From NCBI RefSeq assembly GCF_002197845.1, contig NZ_NIDE01000006.1, forward strand, positions 1 to 64,000: 64,000 nucleotides of DNA, read 5' to 3'. The stretch is from Fimbriiglobus ruber (lineage in GTDB: Bacteria > Planctomycetota > Planctomycetia > Gemmatales > Gemmataceae). A model generated the notes under the pieces. That model had not been told where the DNA came from, made no database searches, and saw only the letters and a program-made list of their open reading frames with translations. The stretch's first letter is position 1. Each line of letters starts with the position of its first letter. This document shows, piece by piece, positions 8,231 through 62,900 of the stretch. Made by a program: the position numbers and the translations under genes.

Positions 8231-8300
8231 GCAGAGATCCTCGGGTGACAGGATGAGGGCCGGACGGGGCGTCCGGCGACGAATGCGGGTGGGAAACGAC

Positions 8301-9694: not shown

Positions 9695-9715
9695 TTGACA
9701 CGCAACTAGTGTCAA
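9695..9715. promoter_or_regulatory. inverted repeat operator in the divergent promoter
   Basis: TTGACAC-N7-GTGTCAA is a perfect 7-bp inverted repeat with a 7-bp spacer, 28 bp before the XRE start codon. The left arm contains a TTGACA -35-like hexamer and TATGTT lies about 16 bp after the repeat. It is the natural candidate site for the adjacent XRE protein, controlling itself and the divergent operon. Confidence 0.55.
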
Positions 9716-9742
9716 GCGGGCCGCAGCGTATGTTCGCCCGGA

Positions 9743-10036: not shown

Positions 10037-10118
10037 TCGGTCGGCCGCTCGAGCCGGCCAAACCGTTGCGGGCTAACTCGCGGTCCATCATGAGTTATGC
10101 CCGAACGGCCGCGAGAAT

Positions 10119-10916: not shown

Positions 10917-10962
10917 AGTGTCCTCCCCGTGTGGGTATCGCCGGGCGTTCCGGGTGGTTTTC

Positions 10963-11217
10963 TCATCGGCGATCGCATGTCTCGATCCGGCCGGCATCCA
11001 CGGCGCGGCGTGATGGGAAATCCCGCTCGCCGGTCAATGCATCGTGACCGGGCGTGGCTTCGGGCTCGGAGATCGGTGGCGTCATCTTTCGCGTCTCACG
11101 AAGGCCGTCGGCGACCATTCGAGACAACCGATTCAAAAAATCCTCCAGTGCCTGGCGGGCGGCCGGACCGTCGGGCGCCGGCGCGTGTGGATTCGGTTCG
11201 GCCCCGGGGTTTGACAT
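10963..11217 (-). CDS. small hypothetical protein, 84 aa
   Basis: ATG 11217 follows ACCGGAGGTCAGCC. The product has a helical segment (ARQALEDFLNRLSRMVADGLRETRK) and a charged tail. It precedes the exonuclease on the same strand with a short gap, so the two probably share a transcript. No family is recognised. Confidence 0.6.
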   Translation of the reverse strand: MSNPGAEPNPHAPAPDGPAARQALEDFLNRLSRMVADGLRETRKMTPPISEPEATPGHDALTGERDFPSRRAVDAGRIETCDRR

Positions 11218-11243
11218 GGCTGACCTCCGGTAGGTGGTGGAAA

Positions 11244-11283
11244 CGACCCGACCCCGCACGGCGGGCCGTGCGGGGTCGGGTCG
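11244..11283. terminator. 19-bp perfect stem-loop terminator
   Basis: A long GC-rich stem (arms 11244-11262 and 11265-11283, starting CGACCCGACCCC) closed by two bases lies between the end of the interrupted recombinase (stop 11313) and the 84-aa gene. It is the natural transcription end for the recombinase. There is no U-tract on either side. Confidence 0.6.
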
Positions 11284-11312
11284 GGCGATCCTCGGGGAGC
11301 CGAGCGGACCGA

Positions 11313-11417
11313 TCAGTTCGGCCAATTCGGATAACCGGGTCGGGGTTCGAACACGTACCGCGGGTGACGGTGGCGGGCGTTCGACCGTGCCTCCTCGGTC
11401 GGCGGTGAGGTCACTAA
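11313..11417 (-). pseudogene. 3' end of the serine recombinase, cut off by the IS1031-like element
   Basis: Reading from the TTA target duplicate at 11417, the frame VTSPPTEEARSNARHRHPRY continues with VFEPRPGYPNWPN and stops at 11313. It joins in frame to codon L of the main recombinase ORF once the 931-bp insertion and one TAA copy are removed. The HPRYVFEPRP ending is a common terminus of large recombinases of this type, as far as I recall. Confidence 0.8.
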
Positions 11418-12348
11418 GAAACCATCTCAAAATAGGCGTCAACCTAACCCATTGAGGCGGAAGAGTCTACGATACCAGATCAAGGAACACGCTAACTGGA
11501 CTAAGCCCAAATAATTCTTTCCGTTTTTTGCATAACGGACCAAGATGGCTCGGCAACGATTCAGCCAACTCAGGGTACGCTCAACCACCCAACGACGCGG
11601 CTTGCCATCCGGGTGCTTGGCCGTGACCGTTGTCTTCTCCTCGCCGATTCGGCGGATGTGAGGGGTGTATTGGGCCTCACTCGCCGCAGACTGGCCGGAC
11701 GGATTATCGTACGCTTTATCCAAACACAGATGTTGCTCGTGTTCTTTGGGATCCGGCCGCTCGATGACGATCGCCTCGATCGTCGCCTTCAATAACTTCG
11801 CATCGTGTCGATTCGCCCCGTCAATGACCACCCCCAGTGGTCCACCCTGTTCGTCCACCACGATGCTCCGCTTCGTCCCGTTTTTCCCTCGATCCGTTGG
11901 GTTTTTGCCGATGTGGTCGCCGCCGTGACGGGCCTTCCCCATGCACCCGTCAGCGCTCTGCCAGTCCCAATGGACTTGCCCCAGATCATCACATGTCTGG
12001 ACCAGATCCGCCCAGATCTTTTCCATCACACCCAAGCGACACCAGCGTTGATACCAACGGTGAACCGTGCTGTCGTCACCCAGCACCTTGGGCAACGCAT
12101 TCCATTGGCACCCGGTCCGCATCTGGTAGATGATCCCGTTCAGGCACCTACGCCAATCCGCGTGATGCCGACCACGGGGGTCTCGCCGAGGCCAGGCCGC
12201 CGCAAGGATCGGTTCGATCCTCGCCCATAAATCATCGGATACCTCCCAGATCGTCGGAAGGATCGATTCTCTGTCCGCCGTCATACACTCGCTCCGCGAT
12301 TTCCCGTAACCTCCTGCCCTGGTACATTATACTTTCTGAGATGGTTTC
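11418..12348 (-). mobile_element. IS5-family (IS1031-like) insertion sequence, 931 bp
   Basis: The ends are inverted repeats: left GAAACCATCTCAAAAT, right reading inwards GAAACCATCTCAGAAA. The flanks are a 3-bp TAA duplication (11415-11417 and 12349-12351); a TNA duplication is characteristic of the IS1031 subgroup. One complete transposase fills it. It is inserted within the 3' part of the serine recombinase gene. Confidence 0.9.
11439..12284 (-). CDS. IS5-family DDE transposase
   Basis: 281 residues. The N-terminal DUF4096-type helix region has DDLWARIEPILAAAWPRRDPRGRHHADWRRCLNGI. The DDE core shows SADGCMGKA (first D), KRSIVVDEQGGPLGVVIDGANRHD (second D) and WVVERTLSWLNRCRAI with the catalytic Glu. 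Length is normal and the frame is intact, so the copy may be active. It catalyses cut-and-paste movement of the surrounding 931-bp element. Confidence 0.93.
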   Translation of the reverse strand: MTADRESILPTIWEVSDDLWARIEPILAAAWPRRDPRGRHHADWRRCLNGIIYQMRTGCQWNALPKVLGDDSTVHRWYQRWCRLGVMEKIWADLVQTCDDLGQVHWDWQSADGCMGKARHGGDHIGKNPTDRGKNGTKRSIVVDEQGGPLGVVIDGANRHDAKLLKATIEAIVIERPDPKEHEQHLCLDKAYDNPSGQSAASEAQYTPHIRRIGEEKTTVTAKHPDGKPRRWVVERTLSWLNRCRAILVRYAKNGKNYLGLVQLACSLIWYRRLFRLNGLG

Positions 12349-44441: not shown

Positions 44442-44515
44442 GGGGGCGTAGCTCAATTGGTTAGAGCACCGGACTGTCGATCCGGAGGTTGCGGGTTCGA
44501 GTCCCGTCGCCCTCG
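44442..44515 (+). tRNA. tRNA-Asp (GUC), island attachment site
   Basis: Acceptor GGGGGCG/CGCCCUC, D-arm GCUCAAUUGGUUAGAGC, anticodon loop CUGUCGA (GUC), T-arm GCGGGUUCGAGUCCCGU, discriminator G. The gene is complete. The last codons of the convergent integrase lie within its 3' half, so it is the att site of the island to the right. Confidence 0.95.
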
Positions 44516-46066
44516 CTGAAGACTCTCGATGACATCAAATGACTGGTTCTGTCTAAACCCCTGGGAGACCGGGGGTTCTGCCTTTGTGGCTTCTTGTTTC
44601 GAGGCCCCTGCTTGGTTGTCAGCCACAGCACCGACATGACTCGGATTGCACCCATTCCGTGCAACTGGCGTGCAACCGGAATTGGGTTTTAACTCTTTCG
44701 CGGTGATCTGAGTCGGTAAGATGCTCGGCAACTTTTCCACCGCGCCGGCGAGGTCGTACAACCGGCGATGTGAATAGCGAGCCGTCAGTTCCGGCTTACT
44801 ATGTCCGGCAAGTTCTTGAAGAGTTCGGAGGTCGATCCCGGATCGGCCACCGAGCGTCAGGAATGAATGTCGGAGGCTGTGAAAATCCGCGTACTCGAGT
44901 CCATCCGTTCCTTCGACCGCGTAAGCGATACCGGCCACTTCGAGGTCTCCCCGCAACATTTCAGCCCCTTTGTGATCCCGAGCCCACGTTCCTCCCCAAA
45001 TCGTCCGTCCGGATTGTTTACCCTCGATGTACGATTTGAGTTCCGCTACTACGTCCGTTGGTAGCGGCTGAACTTTTGGCTTCCGAGATTTGTTGAACCG
45101 GGCCGCGAGGGTTACTGTCGGTGAGTCCCTGTCCAGCGCGAAGTCGGTGGGAGTAAGGTTCGCTAAAGCGTTAGCTCGAAACCCCGTGACCGTGGCCGTG
45201 AGATAAAGAAAAAACCGATCCTCTCCCGTTAGTCCTCGGAACGTCCGGTTACTCGCTCGCGTTGCTGCCAGGAGGGCTCGAAGTTCGTCGGCTATGAGTT
45301 CACGCCGACCCCTGCGGACGTCCGTTTGGACGTTCAAAAAGGTGAGCATGTCGAGAGGGTTTGACCCGATTCGCTTTGAACGTACCATCCACCGGAAGAA
45401 ACCGCGAATGGCTCGAACGTAGTGATTCACGGTTTGAGGCCCACAACCTCGGTTCATCCGTTCAACAAGCGCCATAACCGTCGCCAAGGGCAGCCTTCGG
45501 GCTTTCCCTTGCCCTGTCGCTATCAAACCGTGTCGTTTAATGGCAGCTCGGACTGCTGCCCCCGAGATCCCAAGAATGTCGGCGACGAGAGACGGAGTAA
45601 AGTCCTTTTGTCCGGACGGGAGTAGGGCTGTTCCTCGTGCTGATGTACGGAGTCCGTTCAGCCACTCGGCAGCCCGTCCCGCGTCCACGTCGGCGAGAAA
45701 TTGAAACCTGCACCCGTCGAGCAACCCGCGAACCCGTCCGACGGTCAGGCGGACGTGATCATCGGTGTCACCTTTCGATCGTAGGTGTGCGGCATAGTCC
45801 GCCAACTGGTCGGACAACGGTCTGCGTTTGTGTGCGGCAAACGGATCTGCGAGTCCGACCCCGGCCAAGTCAGCGTCCGCCTCCAGTTTACGGAGCATTT
45901 TTTCTGCTGCCTGCTTGTCCGCACACAACGGTACTTGCCGACCGCCGCCGGTACCGTACCACTTGCGGGAGAGAACGATAGACCGCTCGGCGCCGGGCGT
46001 CCCGGTCGGTACTGTCTTCCCATTCAGCCGGAAAACAGTCTTCTGCTTTTTCCACACCTTTGTCAT
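44453..46066 (-). CDS. int: tyrosine integrase of the tRNA-Asp island
   Basis: 537 residues. The N-terminal arm-binding and SAM-like domains are followed by the catalytic domain: VTGFRANALANLTPTDFALD (Arg), DFHSLRHSFLTLGG (H-x-x-R), QELAGHSKPELTARYSH (GH and the nucleophilic Tyr). A 100-residue tail follows, and the last 20 residues (RDSNPQPPDRQSGALTN) are encoded by tRNA-Asp sequence, so the stop at 44453 depends on integration or on the tRNA itself. ATG 46066 overlaps the HTH gene stop. Confidence 0.95.
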   Translation of the reverse strand: MTKVWKKQKTVFRLNGKTVPTGTPGAERSIVLSRKWYGTGGGRQVPLCADKQAAEKMLRKLEADADLAGVGLADPFAAHKRRPLSDQLADYAAHLRSKGDTDDHVRLTVGRVRGLLDGCRFQFLADVDAGRAAEWLNGLRTSARGTALLPSGQKDFTPSLVADILGISGAAVRAAIKRHGLIATGQGKARRLPLATVMALVERMNRGCGPQTVNHYVRAIRGFFRWMVRSKRIGSNPLDMLTFLNVQTDVRRGRRELIADELRALLAATRASNRTFRGLTGEDRFFLYLTATVTGFRANALANLTPTDFALDRDSPTVTLAARFNKSRKPKVQPLPTDVVAELKSYIEGKQSGRTIWGGTWARDHKGAEMLRGDLEVAGIAYAVEGTDGLEYADFHSLRHSFLTLGGRSGIDLRTLQELAGHSKPELTARYSHRRLYDLAGAVEKLPSILPTQITAKELKPNSGCTPVARNGCNPSHVGAVADNQAGASKQEATKAEPPVSQGFRQNQSFDVIESLQRGRRDSNPQPPDRQSGALTN

Positions 46067-46446: not shown

Positions 46447-46857
46447 TTACTTTTGGGCGGGCGGACCACGACCTACATTCACTCCCCGCACCCGATAAGT
46501 CGTCGGACCCGACCCGAGCCGGCCTTTTCGCACGACCTTGACTAACCCCACGCCGATCAGTTCCGCGAGCGCCGACCGGACGGTGCGGTCGGTTACGCCA
46601 GCCCGTCGGCCGAGGTCGGTTTGGCCGGTCCGTGACAGCCCATCGGACTTCGTATCCCGCCAGAGGATGAGCCAGACGATCGCCGCCGAACGGGAGAGCG
46701 TGGCCATGCTTTCGTCGACGAACCCATTGATCTCCGCGAATCGCCCCCGCGCATTCTTCCGGGTCGTCGGACGAGCAGTCGGAGTCGGGGCGACCGGCGG
46801 GAGCATTTCGGCACCCTTGAGCCCGCCAGTCGGTGCAGGGGCGTTTGTGGCCGTCAC
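46447..46857 (-). CDS. winged-helix DNA-binding protein
   Basis: 136 residues from GTG 46857, which overlaps the stop of the ATPase gene (GTGA). After a Pro/Thr-rich N-terminus comes a winged helix: SMATLSRSAAIVWLILWRDT, GLSRTGQTDLGRRAGVTDRT, VRSALAELIGVGLVKVVRKG. It resembles the HTH proteins that accompany replication genes of plasmids and phages. A role in replication initiation or its control is inferred. Confidence 0.8.
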   Translation of the reverse strand: MTATNAPAPTGGLKGAEMLPPVAPTPTARPTTRKNARGRFAEINGFVDESMATLSRSAAIVWLILWRDTKSDGLSRTGQTDLGRRAGVTDRTVRSALAELIGVGLVKVVRKGRLGSGPTTYRVRGVNVGRGPPAQK

Positions 46858-47768
46858 CAATCGCCCCCTTCGGCTTCTCCGGCCTGCTGGCCCCAGATGT
46901 TGCGGACAGCGGCCGCCAGCGGGCCGTCGTCGGGTGTGTCGCCGACCGGGTCGAACCGCTGGACGTGCCCGGTGAACCGAAGGGGGATGTCGAGGGACTC
47001 CCCGTGCCGGCTCTTGACGTGCTTTAGGGTAATGCCGGTCGGGTCGTCGGGGCTGTCGCGAACGAGCAGGAAGGCGTCGTCTGCCCCGTACTCCAACTCG
47101 CTCGACTCCCGGAAGCTGGCGAGGTTCAGGCCGCCGTACCCACTTCGCCCCTTGTCGTCCCGTTGTCGGCCGACGGCCGCAATCACCAGGACCGCGACTC
47201 CACAATCGGCCATCCCGCGGACGTATTCCATCACCGCGTCGACGGCTGCTTTCTTGTGGGACTGCTCCCCGGGCGCAGTGAATCGCTGGATGTAATCCAT
47301 CACGATCAGGTCGGCCCCGGACGCGTCGCCCGCCCGCGCGACGTTCTCGACCGTCCACGGCGGGCGGGCGAACGCCAGCCGGGTGCCGAGTTCCACGAGG
47401 GCCCGGAGCCCGGCGGCGATGCGGTCCGCGTGTTCGGCGCCGAGTTTCCGGTAACGGATGGTCCGCAGGTCGACCCCGGACAGCCGGGCCAGTTGGCGGT
47501 CGAGGAGGGCGGCCGGTGCCATCTCGACGTTCGCGACCAGGGCCCGGAGTGTCGGCGTGAGCCGGAGGGCGTCGATCACCAGTTGCATGACGAACGCGCT
47601 CTTGCCGACCCCGGGTGGGCCGCCGAGTAGCGTCACCAGACCCGGGCCGATCTCGATCCGGCCGAGGTCGCCCTCGCCGCCCGGGTACAAGGTCGGGGGC
47701 TTGCCCGAGAGGACGTCGGCTTGCCACTCGGCGATCAGATCAGCGGCGGGAACGAAGTGGGCGGTCAT
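46854..47768 (-). CDS. DnaB-like RecA-fold ATPase
   Basis: 304 residues from ATG 47768, which overlaps the primase stop (ATGA). Walker A VTLLGGPPGVGKSAFVMQLV, Walker B ADLIVMDYIQRF, and the DnaB-type segments VANVEMAPAALLDRQLA and FRESSELEYGADDAFLL. It matches the C-terminal motor of DnaB/RepA-type helicases without the N-terminal domain. Together with the primase it forms an island-encoded replication module. Confidence 0.87.
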   Translation of the reverse strand: MTAHFVPAADLIAEWQADVLSGKPPTLYPGGEGDLGRIEIGPGLVTLLGGPPGVGKSAFVMQLVIDALRLTPTLRALVANVEMAPAALLDRQLARLSGVDLRTIRYRKLGAEHADRIAAGLRALVELGTRLAFARPPWTVENVARAGDASGADLIVMDYIQRFTAPGEQSHKKAAVDAVMEYVRGMADCGVAVLVIAAVGRQRDDKGRSGYGGLNLASFRESSELEYGADDAFLLVRDSPDDPTGITLKHVKSRHGESLDIPLRFTGHVQRFDPVGDTPDDGPLAAAVRNIWGQQAGEAEGGDW

Positions 47769-48754
47769 GCGGCACCCCCTGCGCCGGTGGCCACGCGGCG
47801 GCCGTGGTCGATCCCACACCCGATCTGTCGGTCCACCTCACCCGGTGGCAGTCCGGTGTCGAGGGCGGGTTCGGTCAGCAGCGCGCGGATCAGGGCGTCG
47901 ATCCCGCGGACGGCGGCGAGTTCGGCCATGTCGGCCGCGGCCCGGAACAGGCGCGGGTGCCGCTCGCCCTCCTCGGCCCCGGAATGGAGGAAATCGATCG
48001 TCGCCCGCTGCAATCGACCGGGGTGGTCACTTCCGGCCATCACCGTTCGCTCGCGCCCGGCGGCCGCGGCGTCCTCCCAGTCGGCTTCGAGTTCAGAACT
48101 CAGTTCCCCGATCCGCGGGAGGTCAAACGGGAGCGGCTCCCGGGCCAGTTCGGTCACGCGGGCCACGGACAGATTCATCAGCTCGGCGTGGGAGACTCGC
48201 CGTTTGTGGTAACCCGTCCGCGGGTGGCGGGAGTTTGGAGCCCGGAAACACCGGACACGATCGTAAACCGATGTGTCAATTCGCACCCCGGCTCCGGCTG
48301 CGAGCCGTTCGGCGAGTTGTCGGGCCGTTCGGTGGAACATTGGCGATGGTGGCGGATTGTGGGTGAGCGGGAGCCCGAGGTGAAACCCCTTGGCCCCGGA
48401 AAAGAAGGCGAGCAAGTCGTCCTCGTCCAGCTGACGGTAGCGGTCGAGGACGAACCCGGCGAGCTTGCGCGCGTCGCTCAGCGCGGCCTCAAGGTCGCCC
48501 GGGTGGTCGAGGTCGAACCAGAGCCACGGAGACCAGCACGGGCCGGCGAATCCCTTCGGGCTCCCGCGCTCCCGGAGCAGTTGCTGGAAGTCGGGACCGT
48601 AGTGGAATGCGGACAGGTACGCTTCGGCGTCAGGTTGCGATCGGGGATCAGCGGCGCAGTGGGCCGAGAAGGCGGCGGCCGCGTCAACCAGCCGCCGCCC
48701 CTCGGTCACCGGCCCGACCACCCGAAACCCGTACGGGGAGTCGGTTCGGATCAC
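47765..48754 (-). CDS. archaeo-eukaryotic-type primase
   Basis: 329 residues from GTG 48754, overlapping the upstream stop. The AEP signature is WLWFDLDHPG (D-x-D) followed by LLAFFSGAKGFHLGLPL (S-x-H). Then YDRVRCFRAPNSRHPRTG is the third conserved block. This is the small-subunit primase fold used by many plasmids, phages and satellites. A helical C-terminus follows. It is coupled to the DnaB-like ATPase. Confidence 0.87.
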   Translation of the reverse strand: MIRTDSPYGFRVVGPVTEGRRLVDAAAAFSAHCAADPRSQPDAEAYLSAFHYGPDFQQLLRERGSPKGFAGPCWSPWLWFDLDHPGDLEAALSDARKLAGFVLDRYRQLDEDDLLAFFSGAKGFHLGLPLTHNPPPSPMFHRTARQLAERLAAGAGVRIDTSVYDRVRCFRAPNSRHPRTGYHKRRVSHAELMNLSVARVTELAREPLPFDLPRIGELSSELEADWEDAAAAGRERTVMAGSDHPGRLQRATIDFLHSGAEEGERHPRLFRAAADMAELAAVRGIDALIRALLTEPALDTGLPPGEVDRQIGCGIDHGRRVATGAGGAA

Positions 48755-49285
48755 GTCTGGCCCTCCCCGTTGGCCCCGAACGGGAATTCGGCGCTCGAAT
48801 CGCCCGGCATGCCGCTGTCCAACTTCGGGGCGAATGGGTCGACCGCGGCGTCCTGGACCCGGAGGAGTTCGAGGTTCCGGATCTCGTTCCGCTCGATCCC
48901 GTCGTCGTCCGTCCGCACGACGACCGTGACCTTGCACACCAGCCGGTTCGCGGGCAACGGCTGTTCGAGCTTCTCCCGGCTGGTGATGCCGAGCTTTGAC
49001 AGGTCGCGCTTCGTATATGGCAGGGCGGCCGGGGTGAGATACTTGTCCCACCAGAGCCGCCGGCCGGCGTGTTCCCTCGATCACCCGGAACTCGACCTTG
49101 TAACACCGAGTTCCGGTACGGGCCTGGTCGAGGCGGCCGCCGGTGGCCAGGACAACGTACACGCCCTTCGGTAGAGGGCCGAAGTCGTCGGCCGCTTCGG
49201 TCGCGTCGAACTGGTTGAAAATGTCGTCATCGCCCCCGTTCCGACCGGGTAAAATGCCGGCGAGGGGTTTTCGTGGCGTACTCAC
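48751..49285 (-). pseudogene. DUF669-like ssDNA-associated protein, one apparent frameshift
   Basis: ATG 49285 begins MSTPRKPLAGILPGRNGGDD, then FNQFDATEAADDFGPLPKGV and CYKVEFRVIEG. Near 49079 the frame changes and continues HAGRRLWWDKYLTPAALPYT, KLGITSREKLEQ and the acidic tail AEFPFGANGEGQT. One extra (or two missing) bases explains it. The TRCYKVEFRVIEG...AGRRLWW pattern is like DUF669 phage proteins found beside primases. Corrected length is about 177 residues. Confidence 0.65.
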
Positions 49286-49719: not shown

Positions 49720-49757
49720 GCTACTTCCGGCGTAGCGGCCGCTACTTTTCGTGTAGC
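49720..49757. promoter_or_regulatory. two tandem GCTAC-N7-GTAGC dyads
   Basis: GCTAC-N7-GTAGC occurs at 49720-49736 and again at 49741-49757, separated by GGCC; the second overlaps the last codons of the QueC-like gene. They lie about 130 bp upstream of the AlpA-like start. Spacing and duplication suggest operators or excisionase-binding sites controlling the replication block. Confidence 0.5.
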
Positions 49758-51823
49758 GGAAATGATTTTTCGTTATTTCCTGCTTGCCATTCAATCCTCG
49801 GACTTGCGGCGTAGATGACCCGCTGACCACCGCGGATGCTTGAGCGGAGGTGTTCGGCGACCTCGGAGCCGCGGTTGACCCGGATCTCCTCCACCACTCG
49901 CCGGATCGCGATCCCGACCGATTTGCGGATCTTCTCCCAGGTGCCCGCATCCTGGCGGATCCGACCGCGAGGCGTCATCACCCGCTTGATCTCCGACTCA
50001 ATGTCCCGGAAGTCTCGGTCGACTTCTTCGAGGACGAGTGTGTCATTTTCCTCCTCAGCCTTCTCCCGGATGGCCTGGAGTTCGATCAATCGGGCCTTGT
50101 AGGCCGCTACCGCATCCTTGTCGGCCCGCGGACCCGTGGTTTCGATGGCGAACTCCGTTCCCCGCCGGGACACCGTGCAAAAGAGTTCGATCGCCGAGAC
50201 CGGGGTGTTCGGGCGGGACAGCAGGATGTTCAGATAGGCCGCCCCGCGACTCGGCCGTAGGAGGATGTACGGGCCGCCGGCGAACCGCACCGCCCACACG
50301 CTGTTCCACCGGCGGAACACGTAGTCCGTTTCCTCGAAAGGCGGACGGGGGTCAAATGCCGTGGCGGACGGGGGATCGACCCTATCCGGTCGCTCGCCCG
50401 AATCGGACACCAGGCGGACCAGACATGACTGAGGTAACTCGCGTTGACGGATCGCCGTGGCGTTCGCCGCGATCGCCCGATCGACCACCCCGTTGACCTC
50501 CCGGGCGTGCCGCTGGTATAGGTCATACACTTGATGTGCGACGGTCTCCGCCCCGCCTTCGACGTGTCGGAAGACGCGGGTGGCCTCTCCGAACTTCGAG
50601 AAGAACTGGATCGGCGACATCCGCCCGACCTGGTTGGCCGTTTCCAGGTAGCCTGCGAGAAGGCCCCGTGAGATCCCGTCCGCCCGCTCGCCGGTCAAAA
50701 GGTCGACACCATACTCCGACCCCGGGTCGAGCGCCTCTTGCCCGGCGGCCAGGGTCGCGAACCGGCGGTCGATGCACTGAGAGCAGTCCCCGCAATGCGG
50801 ATGATCCTTGGTCTGTGCCCACGTGTGGGCACAACTCGTCGACAACCGGAGCAAGTCCCCACACCCGGCGTCCGCAATCAACCGTACCACGTCCGTCTTC
50901 GTCCGCCACAAGAACGGGTTCTCGATCGCGAACGGCCGCCCGGCGACCGCAGACATGAGTTCGGCGTAGCCGCGAAGGACACGAGGGTGGGTGGTCCGGG
51001 ACGCCCGTGCCCCGAGCACCTGGGCCGACAGGGGCAGGTTCAGGCTGATGACCCCGTTCTCGTAGAACCGGAGCCGGTTCAGCCCGATCATGGCGGCGAA
51101 CGTCGCCCCGAGGGCCGCGAACAGGAACGAGCGGGTCCGCTGGGTGTATTCGCGGCCGAGGTCTGAGTCCTTGTTGACCCGGACGTACAGGTTGAGCGGG
51201 TTCGCATCCCCGGCGTGTGTCCGCAACCCCGCCAGTAGATTCCGATAGCGCTGGGCCACCTTCGGGGTCGACCGGTGATTGACGAGCAGCACCTTCCGTT
51301 GGTCGAGGACGGATTCCTGCACGGCCCCGGCAAGTGAGTCGAGCCCGCCCGAGAACATCACCACCTCATCGACGACCCCGTCGTACATGGTCCCGTCGAA
51401 CTGGATGCAGTTCCGCAAGAGCGGGGACGTGCGAAGGGGGACGAATTCAAACCGGAAGTCGTCGTCCGAGGCGAAATTCAGGACCGACGCGAGCCGGTCA
51501 CAGGTCGACGCGCTCCGCCAGAAGTCCGGGTCGCGGACGGGGATGTGGAACAGGAAGTGGCGGCGCCAGTGCTGCTCGAAATCTTCGACGCGGCCGCCCT
51601 TTCTCGGGGTCGCCTGGTCGGCCGCGTAGACGTAGGCCGCGATGTCGAGCAGGTCGAGGAACCGGTCGGGCGGATCCTGGTACATCCGCTGCCGCATGTC
51701 CTCGATGGTCAGGAAGACGTTGCTGTCCGGCCCGGTCCGGTTCAGCCGGAGGGCGGAGGGATCGGTCCGTCGGTCGGCCTCGAACGAGGGGCCGCAGATG
51801 ACGTGGAGTTCAGGCGGCATCAA
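49742..51823 (-). CDS. QueC-like PP-loop protein with N- and C-terminal extensions
   Basis: 693 residues. The PP-loop is VVMFSGGLDSLAGAVQESV (SGGLDS at about 158-163) and a QueC-type zinc site follows with Cys at about 331 (STSCAHTW) and 344, 347, 350 (CGDCSQCIDRRFA). QueC makes the 7-deazaguanine nitrile preQ0, but normal QueC is about 230 residues. Here 150 residues precede and 330 follow the core, the tail being helical (YKARLIELQAIREKAEEEND). QueC-like proteins occur in anti-phage systems (Qat, some CBASS). With its coupled partner on an island this is a candidate defence protein. Confidence 0.85.
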   Translation of the reverse strand: MMPPELHVICGPSFEADRRTDPSALRLNRTGPDSNVFLTIEDMRQRMYQDPPDRFLDLLDIAAYVYAADQATPRKGGRVEDFEQHWRRHFLFHIPVRDPDFWRSASTCDRLASVLNFASDDDFRFEFVPLRTSPLLRNCIQFDGTMYDGVVDEVVMFSGGLDSLAGAVQESVLDQRKVLLVNHRSTPKVAQRYRNLLAGLRTHAGDANPLNLYVRVNKDSDLGREYTQRTRSFLFAALGATFAAMIGLNRLRFYENGVISLNLPLSAQVLGARASRTTHPRVLRGYAELMSAVAGRPFAIENPFLWRTKTDVVRLIADAGCGDLLRLSTSCAHTWAQTKDHPHCGDCSQCIDRRFATLAAGQEALDPGSEYGVDLLTGERADGISRGLLAGYLETANQVGRMSPIQFFSKFGEATRVFRHVEGGAETVAHQVYDLYQRHAREVNGVVDRAIAANATAIRQRELPQSCLVRLVSDSGERPDRVDPPSATAFDPRPPFEETDYVFRRWNSVWAVRFAGGPYILLRPSRGAAYLNILLSRPNTPVSAIELFCTVSRRGTEFAIETTGPRADKDAVAAYKARLIELQAIREKAEEENDTLVLEEVDRDFRDIESEIKRVMTPRGRIRQDAGTWEKIRKSVGIAIRRVVEEIRVNRGSEVAEHLRSSIRGGQRVIYAASPRIEWQAGNNEKSFPLHEK

Positions 51824-52598
51824 GGAGTGCCCCCTGTCGGAGTTCTGCGGTCAGTTTGGTCATCGCGTAGGCGGTGAATTCCCCGACTTCCTCCCGCGAG
51901 ATCCGACCGTCGTCCTCCCAGTTGTGCTTCATCAGCCACCCGCCGGCGAACGTCTCGACGATCTTGGCCGCCTCCCGGCAGTGGGTGTCGAGGGCGTCGG
52001 TGAACGCGGCCTGCTCGGTGAGGGTGCCGAACCGTCGCCCCTCGCCGACGTGGTCGGGCAGAGTCTGGCTTAGGAAGAAGTTGAGCGTCTTGAACACGAA
52101 CCGGGCAAAGAAGTCGCGGGCGAACAGGCCGAACTGCTTGGCCGTGCGGAGGCGGGCGAGTTCGGCCTGGAGCTGGCCCGGGGCCGGCCCGAACAGTGAC
52201 TTCAGGCGCGTCCCGACGACCTCGGTGAGCGTTTCGACGGCCGCCGTCTGGGCCATTTCCCCGAGGTCTGACCGGTTGCCGGTCCGCTGGGCCTTCGCCT
52301 CGATCGCCTCGGTGACGGCGGCGGTCAGTTCCATCAACCCCGGATCGTCCGATACGTCGAGCCCGGCCCGGCGGAGGGCGGCGGGAAAGTCATCGGCCCG
52401 CGCGGCGACCGGGAGCCGCATGAGGAGCCAGACAGTTTCGATCACGACGGGGTCGGAACCAGCCTTCTTGAGTCCCTTCTCGGCCGCCGACAGGGTCGCG
52501 CTGGCGGCCTGAGCGGCGCCGGCCCCACCGCGGAGGAGTTCGACCACCTGCCGCCACTTGCGTGTGCGGGGCAGGGTTTTGAGACGGACATGGCCCAC
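51810..52598 (-). CDS. helical partner of the QueC-like protein, unknown function
   Basis: 262 residues. It starts MGHVRLKTLPRTRKWRQVVE and is mostly alpha-helical: AASATLSAAEKGLKKAGSDP, VWLLMRLPVAARADDFPAAL, LFARDFFARFVFKTLNFFLS and DALDTHCREAAKIVETFAGG. No TM helix or catalytic motif is seen. Its end overlaps the QueC-like start by 14 bases, so the two are translationally coupled and likely act together. I do not recognise the family. Confidence 0.8.
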   Translation of the reverse strand: MGHVRLKTLPRTRKWRQVVELLRGGAGAAQAASATLSAAEKGLKKAGSDPVVIETVWLLMRLPVAARADDFPAALRRAGLDVSDDPGLMELTAAVTEAIEAKAQRTGNRSDLGEMAQTAAVETLTEVVGTRLKSLFGPAPGQLQAELARLRTAKQFGLFARDFFARFVFKTLNFFLSQTLPDHVGEGRRFGTLTEQAAFTDALDTHCREAAKIVETFAGGWLMKHNWEDDGRISREEVGEFTAYAMTKLTAELRQGALLDAA

Positions 52599-52885
52599 GG
52601 CCCGGCGCTCCGGGGATTGAAGAAAATGGATGGTGAGGGGATGAGCGTACTTCTGGTGGTCGAGGGGTCTCGATGCCAGTAGTGAACAAATGAGTAGATT
52701 TAATGGCGAAAGGTTGTGTACGCGGGCACAGATTCAAAAGAAACCAGCTGCTTTGAAGCTGTCAGCGATGAAGTGAGGGTCGGACCGTGACGCGGAGTCA
52801 CGATTGGGTAATAATCGCCACAACCATTTGGTGTGGTTTCAGTTGCAACTGGGGAGATCGTCGCTGTTAGTTCCATCTTGACCAG

Positions 52886-53198
52886 TCACGCAAGCAGCCC
52901 GATCCCGGCCGTCGACCCGGTCACAAGAGTGGCCGCGAGCGACCCGGACGGGTACTCAGACTGGCCGCGACGAGCGACCCGGCCGCGTCGTACCCGACCG
53001 CTTCCGTGGCCCCCAGCGAGTCGGTCACCAGGGTGGCCCGCCCGTCCCCGTCGTAATGGAACGTGAGCGTCACCCCGCTCGGGTCGGTGCGGGATGTCAT
53101 CCGCCCGTCGGCATCGTACCCCATTACCAACGTCCCGGCCGCGTTCGCGGCGGAGAGCAAGTTGCCGTCCGGGTCGTACACGTAGCTCCGGTTGTCGG
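52886..53198 (-). pseudogene. orphan YD-repeat (RHS) fragment
   Basis: YVYDPDGNLLSAANAAGTLV, GYDADGRMTSRTDPSGVTLT, HYDGDGRATLVTDSLGATEA and GYDAAGSLVAASLST are nearly identical to the segment at about 60130-60424 of the large RHS gene. It ends soon after a frame disturbance. It is a displaced piece of a duplicated RHS gene, itself cut by the IS21 at 53199; a few more bases of it follow the IS at 55656. Confidence 0.85.
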
Positions 53199-53301: not shown

Positions 53302-54918
53302 ATGCTCACCGTGGATCGTTTCGCACTCATCCGCCAGCGGTACCGCGACGGACTCACCGTCCGCCAAATCGCCGCCGAACTCGGACACTCACCCAAGACC
53401 ATCCTCAAAGCCCTCGCGAACCCCGAACCGCCACCCGACACCCGATCCACCCCACGTCCCGCTCCCGTCTTCGGGCCGTTCGAAGCGATTGTCGACGCCA
53501 TCCTCGACGCCGATGAGCACGCCCCACGCAAACAGCGTCACACCGCCACCCAGATCTTCCGACGACTCGTGCAAGAGCACCACTACACCGGCAGCTACCA
53601 CCCCGTCCAACGCTACCTGAAAGACCAGCGACGCGATCGTCGCGAGACCTTCGTTCCCCTCGACCATGCCCCCGGTCAGCGGTGCGAGGCCGACTTCGGA
53701 CACATCCACGTCGACATCCCCGAGGGTCGGCTACTCGTCCCCGTTCTCATCCTGACCTGGAGCTACTCGAACGCTCCGTTCGCCATCGCCCTGCCCACCG
53801 AACGCACCGAAGCCATCCTCCACGGCATGGCCGAGGCGTTCGGGTTCTTCGGCGGAGTGCCCCGCGAAGTGTGGTGGGACAACCCGGCCACCGTGGCGAT
53901 TCACGTGGGGCGAGGTCGGGAACGGACGTTGCATCCGCGGTATGCGGCGTTGTGTAGTCATTACTCCTTCGCCGGCCGGTTTTGTTTGCCCGCGACCCCC
54001 CGAGAGAAGCCGCGGGTCGAGAACCGAGTGAAAGACCTGGAGCGGATGTGGGCGACCCCGGTGCCCCAGGTGAAGGATCTCGCGGCACTCAACGAACACC
54101 TGCGGCGGTGTTGCCTCCAGGCCCGGGAACGCACCTGTGGCACGAACACCGAGACGGTGGGCGTACGGTTCACGCGCGATCTCGCCGCGGCCGGTCCGTT
54201 ATCGTTGCGTCCGTTCGAGGCGTGCGTGTTCGGCACCGGGGTCGTGGATAAGTACCAGACGGTGGCGTTCGATGGCAATCGGTACAGCGTGCCGCGACGA
54301 TACGCCTTCCGGAGTGTGACGGTCAAGGGGTTCGTCGATCGTGTCGAAATCGTCGCCGATCACCAGGCCGTGGCGAGCCACGTGCGGAGCTATGGATCCC
54401 ACCAGCGAGTGCTGAATCCGCTGCATTTCCTGGCGATATTGGAGCAAAAACCGGCCACGCTCGATCACGCCCCGGTGTACCGCGACTGGGCATTGCCGGC
54501 GGTGTTCACCGCCCTACGAACGGACCTGGAACGTCGCCTGGGACCGCGAGCGGGAGTGCGTCAGTACATCCAGGTCCTCCAACTCCTGGCTCGGTTCTCC
54601 CTGGACCATGTGACCCAGGCCGTCACGGTTCGTCTGGCCCGGGGCGACCCCACGGTGGCGTCCATCACCACGACCGCCGAACGACTCGTCCAGACCAGTG
54701 ACACCGCGATGTCACCGCGTGATGCCCGCTTGTCCCAGGTCACCGTACCGCGTCCCGACCTCGCCCGCTTCGACCGACTCTTACCTCGTTCCCCGGAAGG
54801 AATCGACCATGACCGATCCAAGCACGATGCTGTTGAAGGCGAACCTCAAGACCCTCAAGTTGCCGACGGTGCTGGCCGAGTACGAGAAGCTGGCTCGGGA
54901 GGCAGCCAGTCGCGATGA
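53302..54918 (+). CDS. istA: IS21 transposase
   Basis: 538 residues. The N-terminal HTH is RQRYRDGLTVRQIAAELGHS followed by PKTILKAL. The DDE core has CEADFGHIHVDIPEGRLLVP (D), ALPTERTEAILHGMAEAFGF, VPREVWWDNPATVAI (D) and the Glu region EKPRVENRVKDLERMW. The C-terminal domain follows. Its last 110 bases overlap istB, the usual IS21 arrangement. Intact. Confidence 0.95.
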   Translation: MLTVDRFALIRQRYRDGLTVRQIAAELGHSPKTILKALANPEPPPDTRSTPRPAPVFGPFEAIVDAILDADEHAPRKQRHTATQIFRRLVQEHHYTGSYHPVQRYLKDQRRDRRETFVPLDHAPGQRCEADFGHIHVDIPEGRLLVPVLILTWSYSNAPFAIALPTERTEAILHGMAEAFGFFGGVPREVWWDNPATVAIHVGRGRERTLHPRYAALCSHYSFAGRFCLPATPREKPRVENRVKDLERMWATPVPQVKDLAALNEHLRRCCLQARERTCGTNTETVGVRFTRDLAAAGPLSLRPFEACVFGTGVVDKYQTVAFDGNRYSVPRRYAFRSVTVKGFVDRVEIVADHQAVASHVRSYGSHQRVLNPLHFLAILEQKPATLDHAPVYRDWALPAVFTALRTDLERRLGPRAGVRQYIQVLQLLARFSLDHVTQAVTVRLARGDPTVASITTTAERLVQTSDTAMSPRDARLSQVTVPRPDLARFDRLLPRSPEGIDHDRSKHDAVEGEPQDPQVADGAGRVREAGSGGSQSR

Positions 54919-55585
54919 ATCGTACGACGCGTACCTACTGAAGTTGACCGAGTTGGAGGTGGCGACCCGGACCGCCAACGCAGTCGCCGCTCGGATCCGA
55001 TCGGCCGGGTTCCCGATGGTCAAAGAATTCGACACGTTCGACTTCACCGCAATGCCGAGTCTGCCGAAACAGAAGGCGTTGGAGTTGGCTCGTGGGGAGT
55101 GGGTCGATCAACGGACCAATGTGTGCCTGATCGGCGGGAGCGGAACGGGCAAGACGCACGTGGCCGTGGCCTGGGGCTTGTCGCTGTGTCGACTCGGGAA
55201 GAAGGTGCGGTTCGTGACTGCCGCGAGCCTCGTGACGGAGTTGGAGGAAGCGCAGCAACAACACCGGCTGGACCGCATGCTGAGCGCGTTGGACCGGCTG
55301 GATCTGCTCATCGTGGACGAGTTAGGATACCTGTCGTTCAGCCGTGGTGGAGCGGAGTTGTTGTTCCAGGTGTTCGCGGACCGGTACGAGCGACGGAGCC
55401 TGTTGATCACGAGCAACCTGCCGTTCAGCGAGTGGGGCAGCGTATTCCAGGGCGAGCGGATGACGGCGGCCCTGCTCGACCGGCTCACCCACCGCTGCGA
55501 GATCTTCGAGATGAACGGCGAAAGTTATCGGTTCCGCGAGTCGATGAAGAACAAGCCGACCAAGACGAACACCTCGAAGAAATGA
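54809..55585 (+). CDS. istB: IS21 helper ATPase
   Basis: 258 residues from ATG 54809 after GGAAGGAATCGACC. N-terminal helices (LLKANLKTLKLPTVLAEYEK), Walker A LIGGSGTGKTHVAVAWG, Walker B LLIVDELGYLSFS and sensor SLLITSNLPFSEW. The AAA+ regulator selects the target for IstA. Intact. Confidence 0.95.
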   Translation: MTDPSTMLLKANLKTLKLPTVLAEYEKLAREAASRDESYDAYLLKLTELEVATRTANAVAARIRSAGFPMVKEFDTFDFTAMPSLPKQKALELARGEWVDQRTNVCLIGGSGTGKTHVAVAWGLSLCRLGKKVRFVTAASLVTELEEAQQQHRLDRMLSALDRLDLLIVDELGYLSFSRGGAELLFQVFADRYERRSLLITSNLPFSEWGSVFQGERMTAALLDRLTHRCEIFEMNGESYRFRESMKNKPTKTNTSKK

Positions 55586-56219: not shown

Positions 56220-56969
56220 TCATGCAGGCCCTGGAGTTGTGTCCGCTTGCCCCAGAACACGCTCAAGATCTGCTGCGGATTGAGGAGCCATTCCCTCTGC
56301 ACGCCAGTTCTGTAATAACTCTCGGGCTTTTTCGCCGGCCAAGTCGTCGCTGAGCATGTTGAGGGCTTGCTCCCAATATGGGGTGGACTCCAAACTCCGC
56401 AGTATGGCCATCGAGCATTCGGGGGAAATGGTGGTGGGCGGAACAGCCACGAGGGTTAGGTAAGCTTGTGCGGAAGTAGAACCTCGGGTGGTTAGCACCA
56501 CCATCCAGCCCAAGTCAGTGGCTTTGTACGAGGACCGGTACTCAGTATAGCACTTGATGACTAATGTCTCGATGAGGTTTCCCATCGTCTTCGTGAGTTG
56601 ATTGGCGAACTCACCCAGCACACCGTACAGAGCGTGCAGCAGGTCACCGACGCTCCCACCTGGGTTGCCCATAACGGCTTGGAGCAGGCGGTCGAGCATC
56701 CAACTGGACCAAGCAGGAGTGCTGGTGTCAGCGTAGAGCGACAGCAGCATCAGCCTCGACGCTCGGATGCGGTCTGGTTCGGGAGTAGAACTAGTGTTCC
56801 CCGAGGGCACTTCCACCGACTCACAGCCGAGGAATTGCATTGTTCTAGCATAGGCAGTAAAGGTACTCGGCGGCAGGTCAACGAAGTTCCGGCAGGTTGG
56901 ATCGCTGACCATCCTCGCCGTCCGGATCTCGTGTTCAACCTGCTGTAGGAAGTCGTTCGAGCTAGTCAT
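56220..56969 (-). CDS. putative immunity protein of the RHS toxin
   Basis: 249 residues from ATG 56969, which overlaps the toxin stop by 8 bases. MTSSNDFLQQVEHEIRTARM, MLLSLYADTSTPAWSSWMLD, RLLQAVMGNPGGSVGDLLHA, ATDLGWMVVLTTRGSTS, then a helical end. It is soluble, with no signal and no known domain. The position immediately after a toxin tip, on the same strand, is that of an immunity gene. Its GC content is lower than its surroundings, as is common for swapped toxin-tip/immunity cassettes. Confidence 0.75.
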   Translation of the reverse strand: MTSSNDFLQQVEHEIRTARMVSDPTCRNFVDLPPSTFTAYARTMQFLGCESVEVPSGNTSSTPEPDRIRASRLMLLSLYADTSTPAWSSWMLDRLLQAVMGNPGGSVGDLLHALYGVLGEFANQLTKTMGNLIETLVIKCYTEYRSSYKATDLGWMVVLTTRGSTSAQAYLTLVAVPPTTISPECSMAILRSLESTPYWEQALNMLSDDLAGEKARELLQNWRAEGMAPQSAADLERVLGQADTTPGPA

Positions 56970-59900
56970 GCACCACCACCCTAATGAGCGTGTTCGGGGA
57001 CAACTGGCCTGACTTAACTCTTCGTATGATCTCGGCAATCCGGTGGTGCCCGCCCGTGAGAGACAAGTTACCGCCCGGAGCTTCAGTGGCACTAATGGGG
57101 TCTTCTATCCGAAGACGAGTCAAGTCCTCGTTACTCAGTTTACCCACAGGTCCAGCTTGTTGCGGGTTCTCCGGATGCATTCGTGCAGGGTTAGTCTGCG
57201 TAAGATCACCTGCACGAACCTCCCGAATCCGGGGGTTGAACTGCTGAACGGTCGGCGGGTCAGGATTGCCGGGGGTTCCATAACGGCGTCCCTTTCGGTC
57301 CCGGAGTTCGGTTCGGTAAAGAGTGCTATCCGGCAACTCGTTGAAGTTTGGTGCCGGTTCACCCGCTGGCCTCGCTGCTCCTGAGGCATGTGGAATAGTT
57401 GTCGTGCCCTTCTTGGCCTTCTCTGCTCGCTCAAGTACTCGATCAGCAATCTTCTTGGCCTTGTCTGGAGGAATGCCAGCGGCCACCAGCTTCTCGATCG
57501 CCCCCTCTCGATTGCCCTCCTTTAGTAATTGAGAAATTTGTCTATAAAACCATTTCTTAACTGATAGATCTTTGAATACTATTCCTTCACTTCTTATTGC
57601 CGCCTTGACAGTTTTGACGCAGACCTGGTCGTTGTGAGCCCAGACCGCAAACCCCCACTCGATACACCCGACGAAGTAAGTATGGTAGTCGGCTACCTCG
57701 ACGTTGTACACCCGCTCCCACGCCCCGGATGTCCCAACCGCCGCCACTTCCGCCCAATCGCCTGTTTCGGTCAGGATCCGATCCCCTGCGATCAACTCGT
57801 TGCACCTCACCCACCCTCGCCCGGCTACATGGAACGGGTGCTCGGCCGTCGTCCGAATCACCTGGCCCCGAATCTCCAACTCCCACACCGCTCCCCACCG
57901 CTCGAACACCTCCTTGATAACCTTCGGAACCACGTCACCCAGCGGGTCATGTTCGTCCCGCGAGAGGACCACGTCCCCGGGCCGCAACGCCTCGATCGCC
58001 CGGGCTCCGTCCGGCGTCCGCAGCGGTGTCCCGGCCGCGAAACACACCTTGTTCAAGGCTTGAATGAACGACAGAGACGCCCCCATCAGGTGGAGGGTGG
58101 CTTCCCCCAAATACCCCCACTGATTCTCCGGCGCGGCGGTCAGCGCCTGCCCGGCCGCCACCCCGGCTAACCCGAACTGAATTCCGGCGCTGGCCGCGAG
58201 CATAATCTTCCCGGTCGTACACCCGGCCCGGCCCGCCCACCCCAAGACGGGCAACAGATTCGCCACGTCTCCCGCCACCGTCTTGGCCGACTCCAAATCC
58301 CACCGTAGGGTTCCGTCGTGGGCAGCCAACGTTGTTCCACCCCCGGGGACCGCCCGAAGGGCGAACTCGGCCACCCCGACTCCCACCTCCCACCGATCGA
58401 CCGACTGTCCCGACAGCCGCTTCTCGTACAACCGGCGGAACGACGCCGCCTGGGCTTCCCTGGACCGCAGCCGGGCCACCACCGCCACCGGATCCCTGCC
58501 TTCCTGCCCGCGGGTCGAAATCTGGTTGTAATACGCGACGTGGTAGAACGGGGATACGACTTCGCGGGTCCCGTCGCTCGCGACCTCGATCTGACTGCCC
58601 GGGATCGGAAGCGCTAAACCGGTCGTGCGCGTCGGGGACAGGATCATCTGGTAGTACCCGGTCCCGTCCGGGGACACATCGCACACGTACACGTCTTTGG
58701 TCTTGGGATCCTCCCACGCGAGCGGGTTGCCATCAACGGTCTGAGATAACAAACCCTTGACCCGAGCCCGCGGCACCTCCGCCGGATTCAGCGTCAGGCT
58801 CCCGGCCTCTTTCCGGATGACCTCGCCGGCCTCTTTCTGGGCCTGGCTGACCAGCATCGGACCATCGTCTCCGGCCAGGGATAGATACCGGTTCTCGGCC
58901 CCGAGATCCCCGGTCGGACTTGCTTTCTGGGCGTCCCGGTCGCCCCCGTACAAGGGGCCCATGACGAACGGCACGTCGGCGTCCGGCACCCCCGCCAACA
59001 GGAGACCGTCGACAATCGCTTCGTGGGTGTCTACCGACCGATCGGCGTCGACGATCGAGAATCCGTTCCCGGCATCCCGGAACGTCACCTTGCCTTCCCC
59101 GGCTATCTCCTTCCACAGATCCCGCTCTTGATTCGGGACGTACAGCCACCGGCCCGTCGGATCGGTCCCGTCCATCGGCCCGTTGCCGACGTACCGATAC
59201 GGGTTGCTGTCCGGTCCCAAGCCCGTCGGATCCTGAGTGGTGAAGCGCCCGGTAGTGGGGTCGTATTCGCGGGTTTGGGTGAGGTAGTGTCCGGTCACTG
59301 GATCGTACCGGTATCCGTCGAACAACACCTGCCCGCTCAGCCCGGGGACCGTCTGGGCGGTGATCGCCCCGAAGGGATCGTACCCGATCTGGTCGAGGAC
59401 TACCCCGGCCGCGCTGGCCACCGCCACGACCGACCCCAGCGGGTTGGTGAAGTCCCAGTACACGGCACCCCCGGCGACCGAGTCGACGCGGCCGAGCCAG
59501 GCGTCAGGCCCGTTGCCCGCCAGGTACCACGTCGTCCCCACCCCGGCCGTCACGTCGGCCCACGCCGTCGTCCCGTCGGTGGTCACGAACGCCGTCGTCT
59601 GTGTAACGCCGTCGACCGTCGAAGTCTGCGATACCCGGTCGCCGAGGGCATCGTAGGCAAACGCGTCGGTCTCGATGAGCGACCCGTAGACCGTCTCGGT
59701 CGCCGATGTCATTTCGTTCGCGTCGTTGTATGCGTAGTCCCACTCGGTCCCGAGGGACGCGCTCGACTTGGTGACCGTGTTCCCGGCCGCGTCGTACGTG
59801 TACACCCACGTCCCGTCCGTGTGGATGCGGTTGCCCGTGTCGATCACCACTCCCGGCCCCGTCCGGTTGCCGTTCGCGTCGTACGTGTACGTGGCCGGCC

Positions 59901-62900
59901 CGGCCGACGTCATCTGGTTGGTCGCGTCGTACCCGTAGGTGAGCGATGTGCTGTGGACCACCGACGTGGTCATCCGACTACCGGTGTCGTACCCGTAGGT
60001 GTCGGCTTCGACGGTGGTGCCGTCGCCGGCCATCTGGGTGACGCCGGTCACCCGCCCGCGGTCGTCCCGGGCGTACGTCGCCGTCCCGCCGGTGCCGCCG
60101 TCCCGAGTGATGCTCGTCAGCTCGCCGGCCCCGTCGTACCCGAGGGTGGCCGCCAGCGATCCCGAAGGGGTACTCAAGCTGGCCGTTAGCAACGACCCGG
60201 CCGCGTCATACCCGGTCGCCTCGGTCGCGCCCAGCGAGTCGGTCACCAGGGTCGCCCGCCCGTCGCCATCGTAATGGAACGTCAGCGTCACCCCGCTCGG
60301 GTCCGTCCGGGACGTCATCCGCCCGTCGGCGTCGTACCCCATCGACACCGTCCCGGTCGCGTTGGTGGCCGAGAGCAGGTTGCCGTCCGGGTCGTACACG
60401 TAGCTGCGGGTGTCGGTCACCGTCCCGCCCGCGTCCTTCCACACGACCAGGGTGGCGTGCCCCTCGGCGTCGTACGCCGACTGGGTCGTCCGCCCGTCCG
60501 GGTCGGTCAGAGCGGTCGGCCGCCCGTCCCCGTCGTATTCCGTGACCGTCGATTCCCCGAGGGCGTCGACCTGGAGGGTCAGCCGACCGTCCTCGTCGTA
60601 GCTGTAGGTCGTGGTGGTGTTGTCCGGGTCGGTCTCGGACAGCGTCCGCCCGTCGGCGTCGTACGTGTACGAGGTGACGGCCGCGGCCGCCGTCCCGGCC
60701 CCGGCGGTGACGGCCGTCGTCCGCCCCTCCGCGTCGTACGCGGTCAGCGTCGTGTCCCCGTTCGCGTCGATCAGAGCCGTGACGCGGTTGTCGGCGTCGT
60801 ACACCGAGGTGGTGATCCCGGCTGTCGCCCCGGTCCCGTCGACTGTGGCCGTTACGTTCCCCCGCCCGTCGTACAGAGTGGCGGTCGTGTGCCCGGCCCC
60901 GTCGACCGTCTGGGTCAGCCGCCCGTCGGCGTCGTAGGAACTGGTCACGGACGCGGCCACCGCCCCGGCGGCCGACGCGGTCGACGCGGTCAGGACGTTG
61001 CCGTCGGCGTCGAACGTCGTGAGGGTGACGTTCAGGGCCGGGTCGGTGACCCGCGTGGCCCGGTGGTCGCCGTCGAACTCGGTCGTGGTGGTCAAGTCCC
61101 CGGCGACCGTCAACGTCTGGTTCCCGTCGGCGTCGTACCCGTACTGGGTGACGTGCCCGTCCGGGTCGATCGATTGGGTGAGGCGGGCGTCCCGGTCGTA
61201 GGCGCTGGTCGTCGCCGCGGCCACCACCCCGCCGACCTCGGTCACTTCGGTCGTCACATTCCCGGCCGCGTCGTAGGTCGTGCTGGTCACGATCCCGGCC
61301 GGGTCGGTCACTTTGGTCGCCCGCCCGGCCGGGTCGAACTCGGTCGTGGTGGTCAGATCCCCATCGATAGCCAACGTCTGGTTCCCGGCCGCGTCGTACC
61401 CGTCCTGCGTGACCGTCCCGACCGCGTCGATCGACTCGGTCAGGTTCCCGTCGGCGTCGTACACGCTGGTCGTCGCCGACAGTAGGGTCGTGCCGAAGTA
61501 CACGGCCGAGGTGAGCGGGCGGCCGGCGTCGTCATACGTGACCGACGTGACCGTGCCGAGCGGGTCGGTCGTGGTCGTCGCGTTCCCGGCCGCGTCGTAC
61601 GCCGTGACCGTGTCCACCGCGGCCCCGTCGCGCAGGTCGGCGATCAGGGTCTGCCGGCCGGCCGCGTCGTACTCGTAGTCGATCGATTTGCCGAGCCCGT
61701 CGGTCGTCGCGGTCAGATGCCCGGCCAGGTCGTACGTGTTGGTGGTCGACGACACCACGGTCGTCCCGGCGTACACGGCCTCGGTCAGCACATTCCCGGC
61801 CGCGTCGTAGGTCGTGCTGGTGACGTTCCCGGCTCCGTCCGTCAGACTGGTGACGCGGCCATCCCCGTCGAACGCCGACGTCGTGTCGGCCGGTTGCTCG
61901 CCCGCGACCGCCGGTTCGTCGACGGCGGTCTGGTTCCCCTCGGCGTCATACCCGTACGTCGTCGTGTTGCCGAGCCCGTCGGTCATCCCGGTCATCCGCC
62001 CGGCCGCGTCGTAGGCGTTGGTCACGGCGGCGACGACCACCCCGGCGGCCGACTCGGTCACCGCGGTCAGGACGTTGCCGGCCGCGTCGTAGGTCGAGAG
62101 CGTGACGTCCCCGTCCCCGTCGGTCACCTTCGTGGCCCGCTGGTCGGCGTCGTATTCGGTCGTGGTCGTCTGGTCCCCGACCGCCACCGACGTGACGTCC
62201 CCGTCCGCGTCGTACCCGGTCAAGGTGACGTTCCCGTCCGCGTCGGTGAACTGGGTCAGGTGTCCGTCCGCGTCGTACACGTTCGTCGTACTCGCCACCT
62301 GGCCGGTGACGGCGTCGGTGATCGCTTGCGTCAGCACCCGCCCGTCGGCGTCGTACGTGGTCGCCGTCACGTCCCCCTTGGGGTCGGTCGCCAGGGTCAC
62401 GTTCCCGTCCTCGTCGTACGCCGACGTGGACACCAGGTTGCCGCCGGGCATCACGACGGCCATCGTCGTCTGCCGGCCGGCCGCGTCGTACGCGTACGAC
62501 GTCGTCGTCCCGTCCTGGTCCTGCTCCTCGACCACCCGCCCGTCGGCGTCGTACGTGTTCGTCTTGGCCGACGCCTCGGTCCCGTCCGCGTCGTACACCT
62601 GCTCGGTCAGTACCCACCCCTCGGGGTTGTACGTGCTGAACGTCTGGTTCCCGGCCCCGTCCGTTGCGTCGATCACCCGGCCCTCGTGGTCGTACACGTC
62701 GGTCGTGGCCACCGGCGTGTCGGACCCGACCCCCTCGGTCGTCGTCAATACCCGCCCGTCGGCGTCGTACGTCCACGACGTGACGTTCCCGTCCCCGTCC
62801 GTTTCCAGGGTCCGGTTCCCGTCCCCGTCGTACGCGTCCGTGACCGACACCGGGGCCGCCCCGGACTCGGCCGACGACGTCGTCGCGGTCAACACGTGCC

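Follow-up and report, generated by a model that had tools for sequence, protein, structure and literature searches.

The window analyzed here is a 64,000-nt stretch of the Fimbriiglobus ruber genome, which comprises 12.36 Mb in 20 contigs. On its reverse strand, the window carries two overlapping genes: gene B (51810-52598), which encodes a 262-aa helical protein with a predicted QatB fold, a putative N-terminally modified substrate, and gene C (49742-51820), which encodes a 692-aa QatC-like enzyme with an extra C-terminal module. A check of the open reading frames found both genes where an earlier sequence-only reading had placed them. The ATG at 51820, which is the second codon of the listed TTG open reading frame, is the more likely start of C and gives the length of 692 aa. 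B begins at the first start codon available in its frame, a GTG at 52598, and a GGAG ribosome-binding-like site lies 9 nt ahead of it (52608-52611, reverse strand). The end of B and the start of C overlap by 11 nt (51810-51820, reverse strand).

The earlier description of the pair held, both for the coupling of the genes and for their place in a mobile island. The island has its edge at a tRNA-Asp(GTC) gene (44442-44516, forward strand), followed on the reverse strand by a tyrosine integrase that overlaps the tRNA (44453-46066; PF00589, 5.7e-14), a DnaB-like helicase (46854-47819; PF03796, 1.1e-19) and a primase-like protein (47765-49285; phrog_16345 primase, 9e-16, and a weak match to the DNA primase small subunit), and then by the pair. 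A search of the window for a direct repeat of the tRNA end, which would mark the distal border of the island, returned none. An RHS fragment is located just upstream of the pair (52921-53181), and positions 56962-63921 encode a 2319-aa RHS protein that has a HINT-like stretch in its interior, with an IS21 pair (53302-55585) between the RHS parts. Two further copies of the B-C pair are present in the F. ruber genome. A second island, on contig C4 (locus L004, C4:1396000-1415999), is 84% identical over 6.5 kb and is likewise bordered by RHS sequence like that of the window; it contains tandem B genes, the first truncated or chimeric and the second intact, and a C protein 72% identical to that of the window (7779-11542 of the locus). 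The third pair, on contig C10 (L005, 9488-12196), is distant: its C shares 39% identity and has an OmpR-like C-terminal domain, its B is frameshifted, and a transposase adjoins it.

Profile and sequence searches relate C to QueC and QatC. It matches the Pfam QueC family (PF06508, E 3e-7) over the cut-off, the PADLOC QatC profile (6.8e-52) and, in a sequence search of the PDB, the solved QatC 9zee (2.2e-28). The NCBIfam QatC model gives 191 bits (E 3.2e-56), which is under the equivalog cut-off of 280 bits. An AlphaFold2 model of C (mean pLDDT 83.7) aligns over residues 3-473 with QatC 9y01_B (Z 32.3, rmsd 3.3, 407/428 residues), whereas QueC (Z 13.9 over 188 residues) and Cap9 (Z 13.2) match the core alone. 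Residues 1-473 (50402-51820, reverse strand) thus form a complete QatC-like part in the model, with an N-extension, a QueC core and a C-extension. The protein had previously been described as about three times the length of biosynthetic QueC, which is accurate (692 aa versus about 222 aa; PMC13329287), and as keeping the QueC-type PP-loop and zinc site, which is borne out when 162 family members are aligned with 10 QatC proteins. In the PP-loop S157-G-G-L-D161-S162 (51335-51352), S, G, G, D and S are invariant across the alignment, as are the zinc-site cysteines C330, C343, C346 and C349 (50774-50833), which are spaced C-x12-CxxCxxC. The other invariant residues are D56, W85, R228, R230, E254, G256, N261, R275, H278, P279 and R352. 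Residues S274-R275-T276 (50993-51001, all three features on the reverse strand) are equivalent to QatC T278-R279-T280 (PMC13279940); position 274 is T or S and R275 is present in 162/162 relatives, and T276 in 161/162. In QatC, T278 and T280 stand where QueC and Cap9 have the deazaguanine-binding Tyr/Asp (PMC13279940). All QatC active-site positions examined are kept in C. On the combined grounds of the modeled full fold, the extensions and the active-site residues, C is a QatC in the wider protein-family sense.

The C-terminal part of C is a separate module. In the model, residues 500-681 (49778-50323, reverse strand) form a winged-helix-like unit with an inserted helical hairpin, and a profile comparison weakly matches it to OmpR-type wHTH modules (62%). 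This module type makes up the largest group among the C-terminal regions compared (117, including that of the window), and it also occurs without the QatC part in many unrelated planctomycete proteins, in TPR, helicase and zinc-ribbon-like contexts. In other members of the family this position is taken by Trans_reg_C (9.6e-11), by a DpnII-MboI nuclease (7.3e-11) or by HTH domains, and parsimony on the tree implies at least seven gains or losses of the common module. As judged from these sequences, the tail of C is exchangeable and mostly DNA-binding-like across the family. For the module of the window, its topology and its weak profile similarity suggest that it may bind DNA.

Protein B has no match in Pfam, PADLOC, NCBIfam or among PDB sequences. 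Its AlphaFold2 model is all helical, with a pLDDT of 89.5, and its best match in the PDB is QatB 9y01_A, with a Z-score of 11.2 (rmsd 4.1, 199/215 residues) that lies below the caution level for helical bundles, yet is well clear of the next matches, an unrelated chain at 7.3 and then 5.4. Foldseek likewise relates the model to QatB (probability 0.97) and returns no match among viral models. At the sequence level, the hhalign match of B to QatB is weak and short of significance (39% probability, P 3e-4), and a QatB HMM reaches E 0.0074 for two B proteins. Profiles and sequence comparison did not resolve B; it was fold comparison that related it to QatB, and on the strength of the models B has the QatB fold. 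QatB has been reported to be without structural relatives.

The start of B is strongly conserved. The N-terminal tail MGHVRLKTLPRTRKW (52554-52598, reverse strand) contains Gly2 and lies within residues 1-30, which have low pLDDT values (57-61); the first 25-30 residues are flexible in the model. Only five of the 262 columns of B are invariant in 68 diverse sequences, and M1 and G2 account for two of them. An MG start is found in 149/149 intact B proteins with a readable N-terminus (144 MGH, 2 MGT, 2 MGN and 1 MGQ); the start choice favored MG within six residues, but in all 149 it agreed with model position 1. It is kept in 76/76 proteins at 75% non-redundancy, and two additional, interrupted B copies also read MGH. 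QatB starts with MGTS and the Cap9 substrate with MGGS, and Gly2 is needed in both (PMC13279940).

With the C core as query, searches returned 339 related stretches from GTDB genomes and a further 151 from viral contigs, of which the best 80 of each were taken as 160 loci. B lies beside C in 156 of them, most often with the same 11-nt overlap as in the window (89 loci). Three of the four loci that lack an adjoining B are cut by a contig end, and in the fourth (L078) the sequence upstream is unrelated. Such pairing, which the sequence-only reading had proposed to look for in other islands, goes far beyond what chance would give. The nearest named relatives of the window C come mostly from Gemmataceae and other Planctomycetota, and the family as a whole spans about a dozen bacterial phyla (Planctomycetota, Pseudomonadota, Verrucomicrobiota, Acidobacteriota, Thermodesulfobacteriota, Myxococcota, Bacteroidota, Kiritimatiellota, Omnitrophota, Melainabacteria and others). 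The Leptospira noguchii plasmid NZ_CP091938 carries a distantly related pair (L228, 5171-7815) that starts with MGH and ends in a DpnII-MboI-like nuclease tail; this sole annotated copy that we saw is listed publicly as "hypothetical protein". A search of plasmids with the window B alone gave no match. Two atypical arrangements were also observed. At L121:4964-7756, B and C share one 930-aa open reading frame that starts with MGTT, either a natural fusion or the product of a one-base indel. On a Halobiforma plasmid (L229, 5009-7278), a QatC-like protein is preceded by an open reading frame that starts with MGTA; this arrangement, whose tree placement is not reliable, may represent the same principle in an archaeal branch. 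Our literature search found no published description of such a B-C pair.

The sequence-only reading had argued mainly from the absence of other Qat members that the pair forms a separate two-gene system. For QatA (KAP NTPase) and QatD (TatD nuclease), the absence is confirmed: HMMs built from annotated proteins found neither in the 160 loci or in the 64-kb window, whereas classical Qat loci had all four genes in 10/10 cases examined and scored positive with both HMMs in 10/10. For the partner the argument falls, because B has the QatB fold. The earlier view of a mobile, probably defensive two-gene unit built on a QueC homologue with conserved pairing is upheld; because the enzyme is QatC-type and the partner has the QatB fold, this unit is a stand-alone QatBC and not an unrelated system. 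In a tree of 78 proteins, one supported branch (99/98) splits the C family from the QatC proteins of qatABCD. The best reading is therefore a natural, stand-alone minimal QatBC that stands outside qatABCD proper. QatBC alone has been shown to protect against some phages, with a requirement for the N-terminal Gly of QatB and the QatC active site; the QatC reaction, and why QatBC alone protects, are named as open questions in that work (PMC13279940). In a separate observation, a Bradyrhizobium plasmid encodes QatC fused to QatD (709 aa; L226, 5186-7965), and the annotated qatB of this locus starts far too late, so that its MGTS start was missed.

We consider it likely that the pair serves as such a minimal QatBC in anti-phage or anti-mobile-element defense on integrative islands, with C modifying Gly2 of B and the tail of C replacing QatA and QatD. 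By homology to QatBC, C would bind B through QatC-type surfaces. Once Met1 has been removed, the N-terminal tail of B, which is short and flexible (G-H-x-R-L-x-x-L-P-x-T-R-x-W), would enter the active site of C, which would use ATP to activate a carboxylate-bearing substrate and attach it to the Gly2 amino group. The DNA-facing role of the missing QatA and QatD would fall to the exchangeable module at the C-terminus, which would sense or act on invading DNA. We infer complex formation, N-terminal modification, DNA binding and defense alike, and the homology to Qat together with the island location makes a defense role probable. The donor may be 7-carboxy-7-deazaguanine, which is available in the host genomes, and the altered pocket leaves room for other donors. 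The sequence-only reading had proposed conjugation of a deazaguanine-like group to a protein or nucleic acid. The invariant N-terminal glycine of B makes protein conjugation the likely chemistry, and the nucleic acid alternative found no support. A deazaguanine-like group is possible in view of the host pathway, but the substrate-site residues of C follow the QatC-like [S/T]-R-T pattern and not the Tyr/Asp of QueC and Cap9.

A broader interpretation, which we put forward only tentatively, is that the family represents a distinct and very widespread protein-conjugation system of islands. Its QatC-type ligase would place a group other than deazaguanine on the N-terminal glycine of a small helical protein, swappable HTH or nuclease tails would determine what the modified complex recognizes or cuts, and QatABCD would be just a single, more complex branch within a broader class.

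Most family loci are on serine-recombinase islands: 94 loci have a large serine recombinase no more than 3.5 kb upstream, and 84 have DUF2924. Other neighbors include primases, Sak4-like proteins, RusA and sigma factors, as well as the defense-type DISARM- or BREX-like helicases, GmrSD and type ISP proteins. Among loci L064-L223, islands with a serine recombinase, DUF2924, a sigma factor, a Sak4-like ATPase and DUF669 carry the pair across phyla, and many of these loci are catalogued as viral contigs; the 25 top-listed PHROG families of their scanned neighbors include neither a capsid nor a terminase. A search of annotated GenBank phages yielded no B-C pair, and many of the IMG/VR matches are therefore probably integrated elements and not phages. 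The steady position beside a recombinase in most loci and the many kinds of HTH-type tails would suit an island control circuit, in which the HTH tail of C would bind DNA of the island, and excision, replication or copy control would be switched according to the modification state of B. We regard this function as unlikely, since the pair also occurs with unrelated integrases, such as the tyrosine integrase of the window, and on the Leptospira plasmid, some members have nuclease tails, and for the homologous QatBC core a role in defense is proven (PMC13279940).

The link to queuosine was examined in the window and in the host genomes. No queuosine genes lie near the pair, in agreement with the sequence-only reading; the true QueC, QueD-like (PTPS) and QueE-like genes of F. 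ruber are on contigs other than that of the pair. A weak QueC match (48 bits, under the cut-off) also lies beside a PTPS gene at G000:C19:414387-415516, and the true QueC is on C14. In 8/8 planctomycetes and 4/4 other genomes tested, a true QueC distinct from C scores above the family cut-off. QueC, QueD-like and QueE-like matches were found in 8/8 host genomes and PTPS in 21/23, and both genomes without PTPS still have QueC. The pathway is thus compatible with a deazaguanine donor but does not discriminate. Together with the QueC fold, PP-loop and zinc site of C, its presence would also be expected if C were a metabolic or nucleic-acid-modifying QueC variant that makes a 7-deazaguanine destined for tRNA or DNA and has B as its accessory subunit. 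This is very improbable: the hosts have their separate true QueC, the substrate residues of C are QatC-like, E. coli QatC cannot substitute for QueC (PMC13329287), and the listed neighbor families include no transglycosylase or tRNA-modification gene, the kind of link that had been named as evidence against a defense role. Against the model of biosynthetic QueC (TIGR00364), C scores 21.9 bits with a cut-off of 150.3, and preQ0 biosynthesis was rejected on this basis. Decay of a qatABCD operon with loss of qatA and qatD would account for a QatC-like C, a QatB-like B and the missing A and D, but is hardly credible given that A and D are missing from 160/160 relatives over many phyla, which form their own supported group with an MGH start in place of MGTS and an added C-terminal module.

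With QueC, C shares the PP-loop and zinc core, but it has three times the length and none of the canonical substrate motifs, is not linked to queuosine genes and comes from a genome that encodes a true QueC elsewhere. With Cap9/CdnD of type IV CBASS, the pair shares a QueC-family enzyme and a partner with a Met-Gly N-terminus. The Cap9 partner is a CD-NTase, whereas B has the QatB fold and no CD-NTase match; Cap9 measures about 185 aa, and its deazaguanine-binding Tyr/Asp are replaced in C by T/S274 and T276. Type IV CBASS was rejected on the partner and on the replaced Tyr/Asp pair. With the QatB-QatC core, the pair has in common the full-length QatC fold, the QatC active-site and zinc residues examined, the [S/T]-R-T substrate-site motif, the predicted QatB fold, the N-terminal Gly2 and the B-C gene order with overlap. 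It differs from qatABCD in the lack of QatA and QatD, from QatB in the MGH start (144/149) and in a tail of about 14-24 residues instead of the long disordered 30-90 residues, and from QatC in the added C-terminal HTH or nuclease module, a score under the equivalog cut-off and a tree branch of its own. The family provides a two-gene version that occurs naturally without QatA or QatD, and a second set of sequences with the predicted QatB fold. Its invariant but differently spelled N-terminus and much shorter tail make substrate recognition and modification directly testable, and its members in about a dozen phyla of bacteria show a putative QueC-type conjugation core put to new use with interchangeable tails of DNA-binding or nuclease type.
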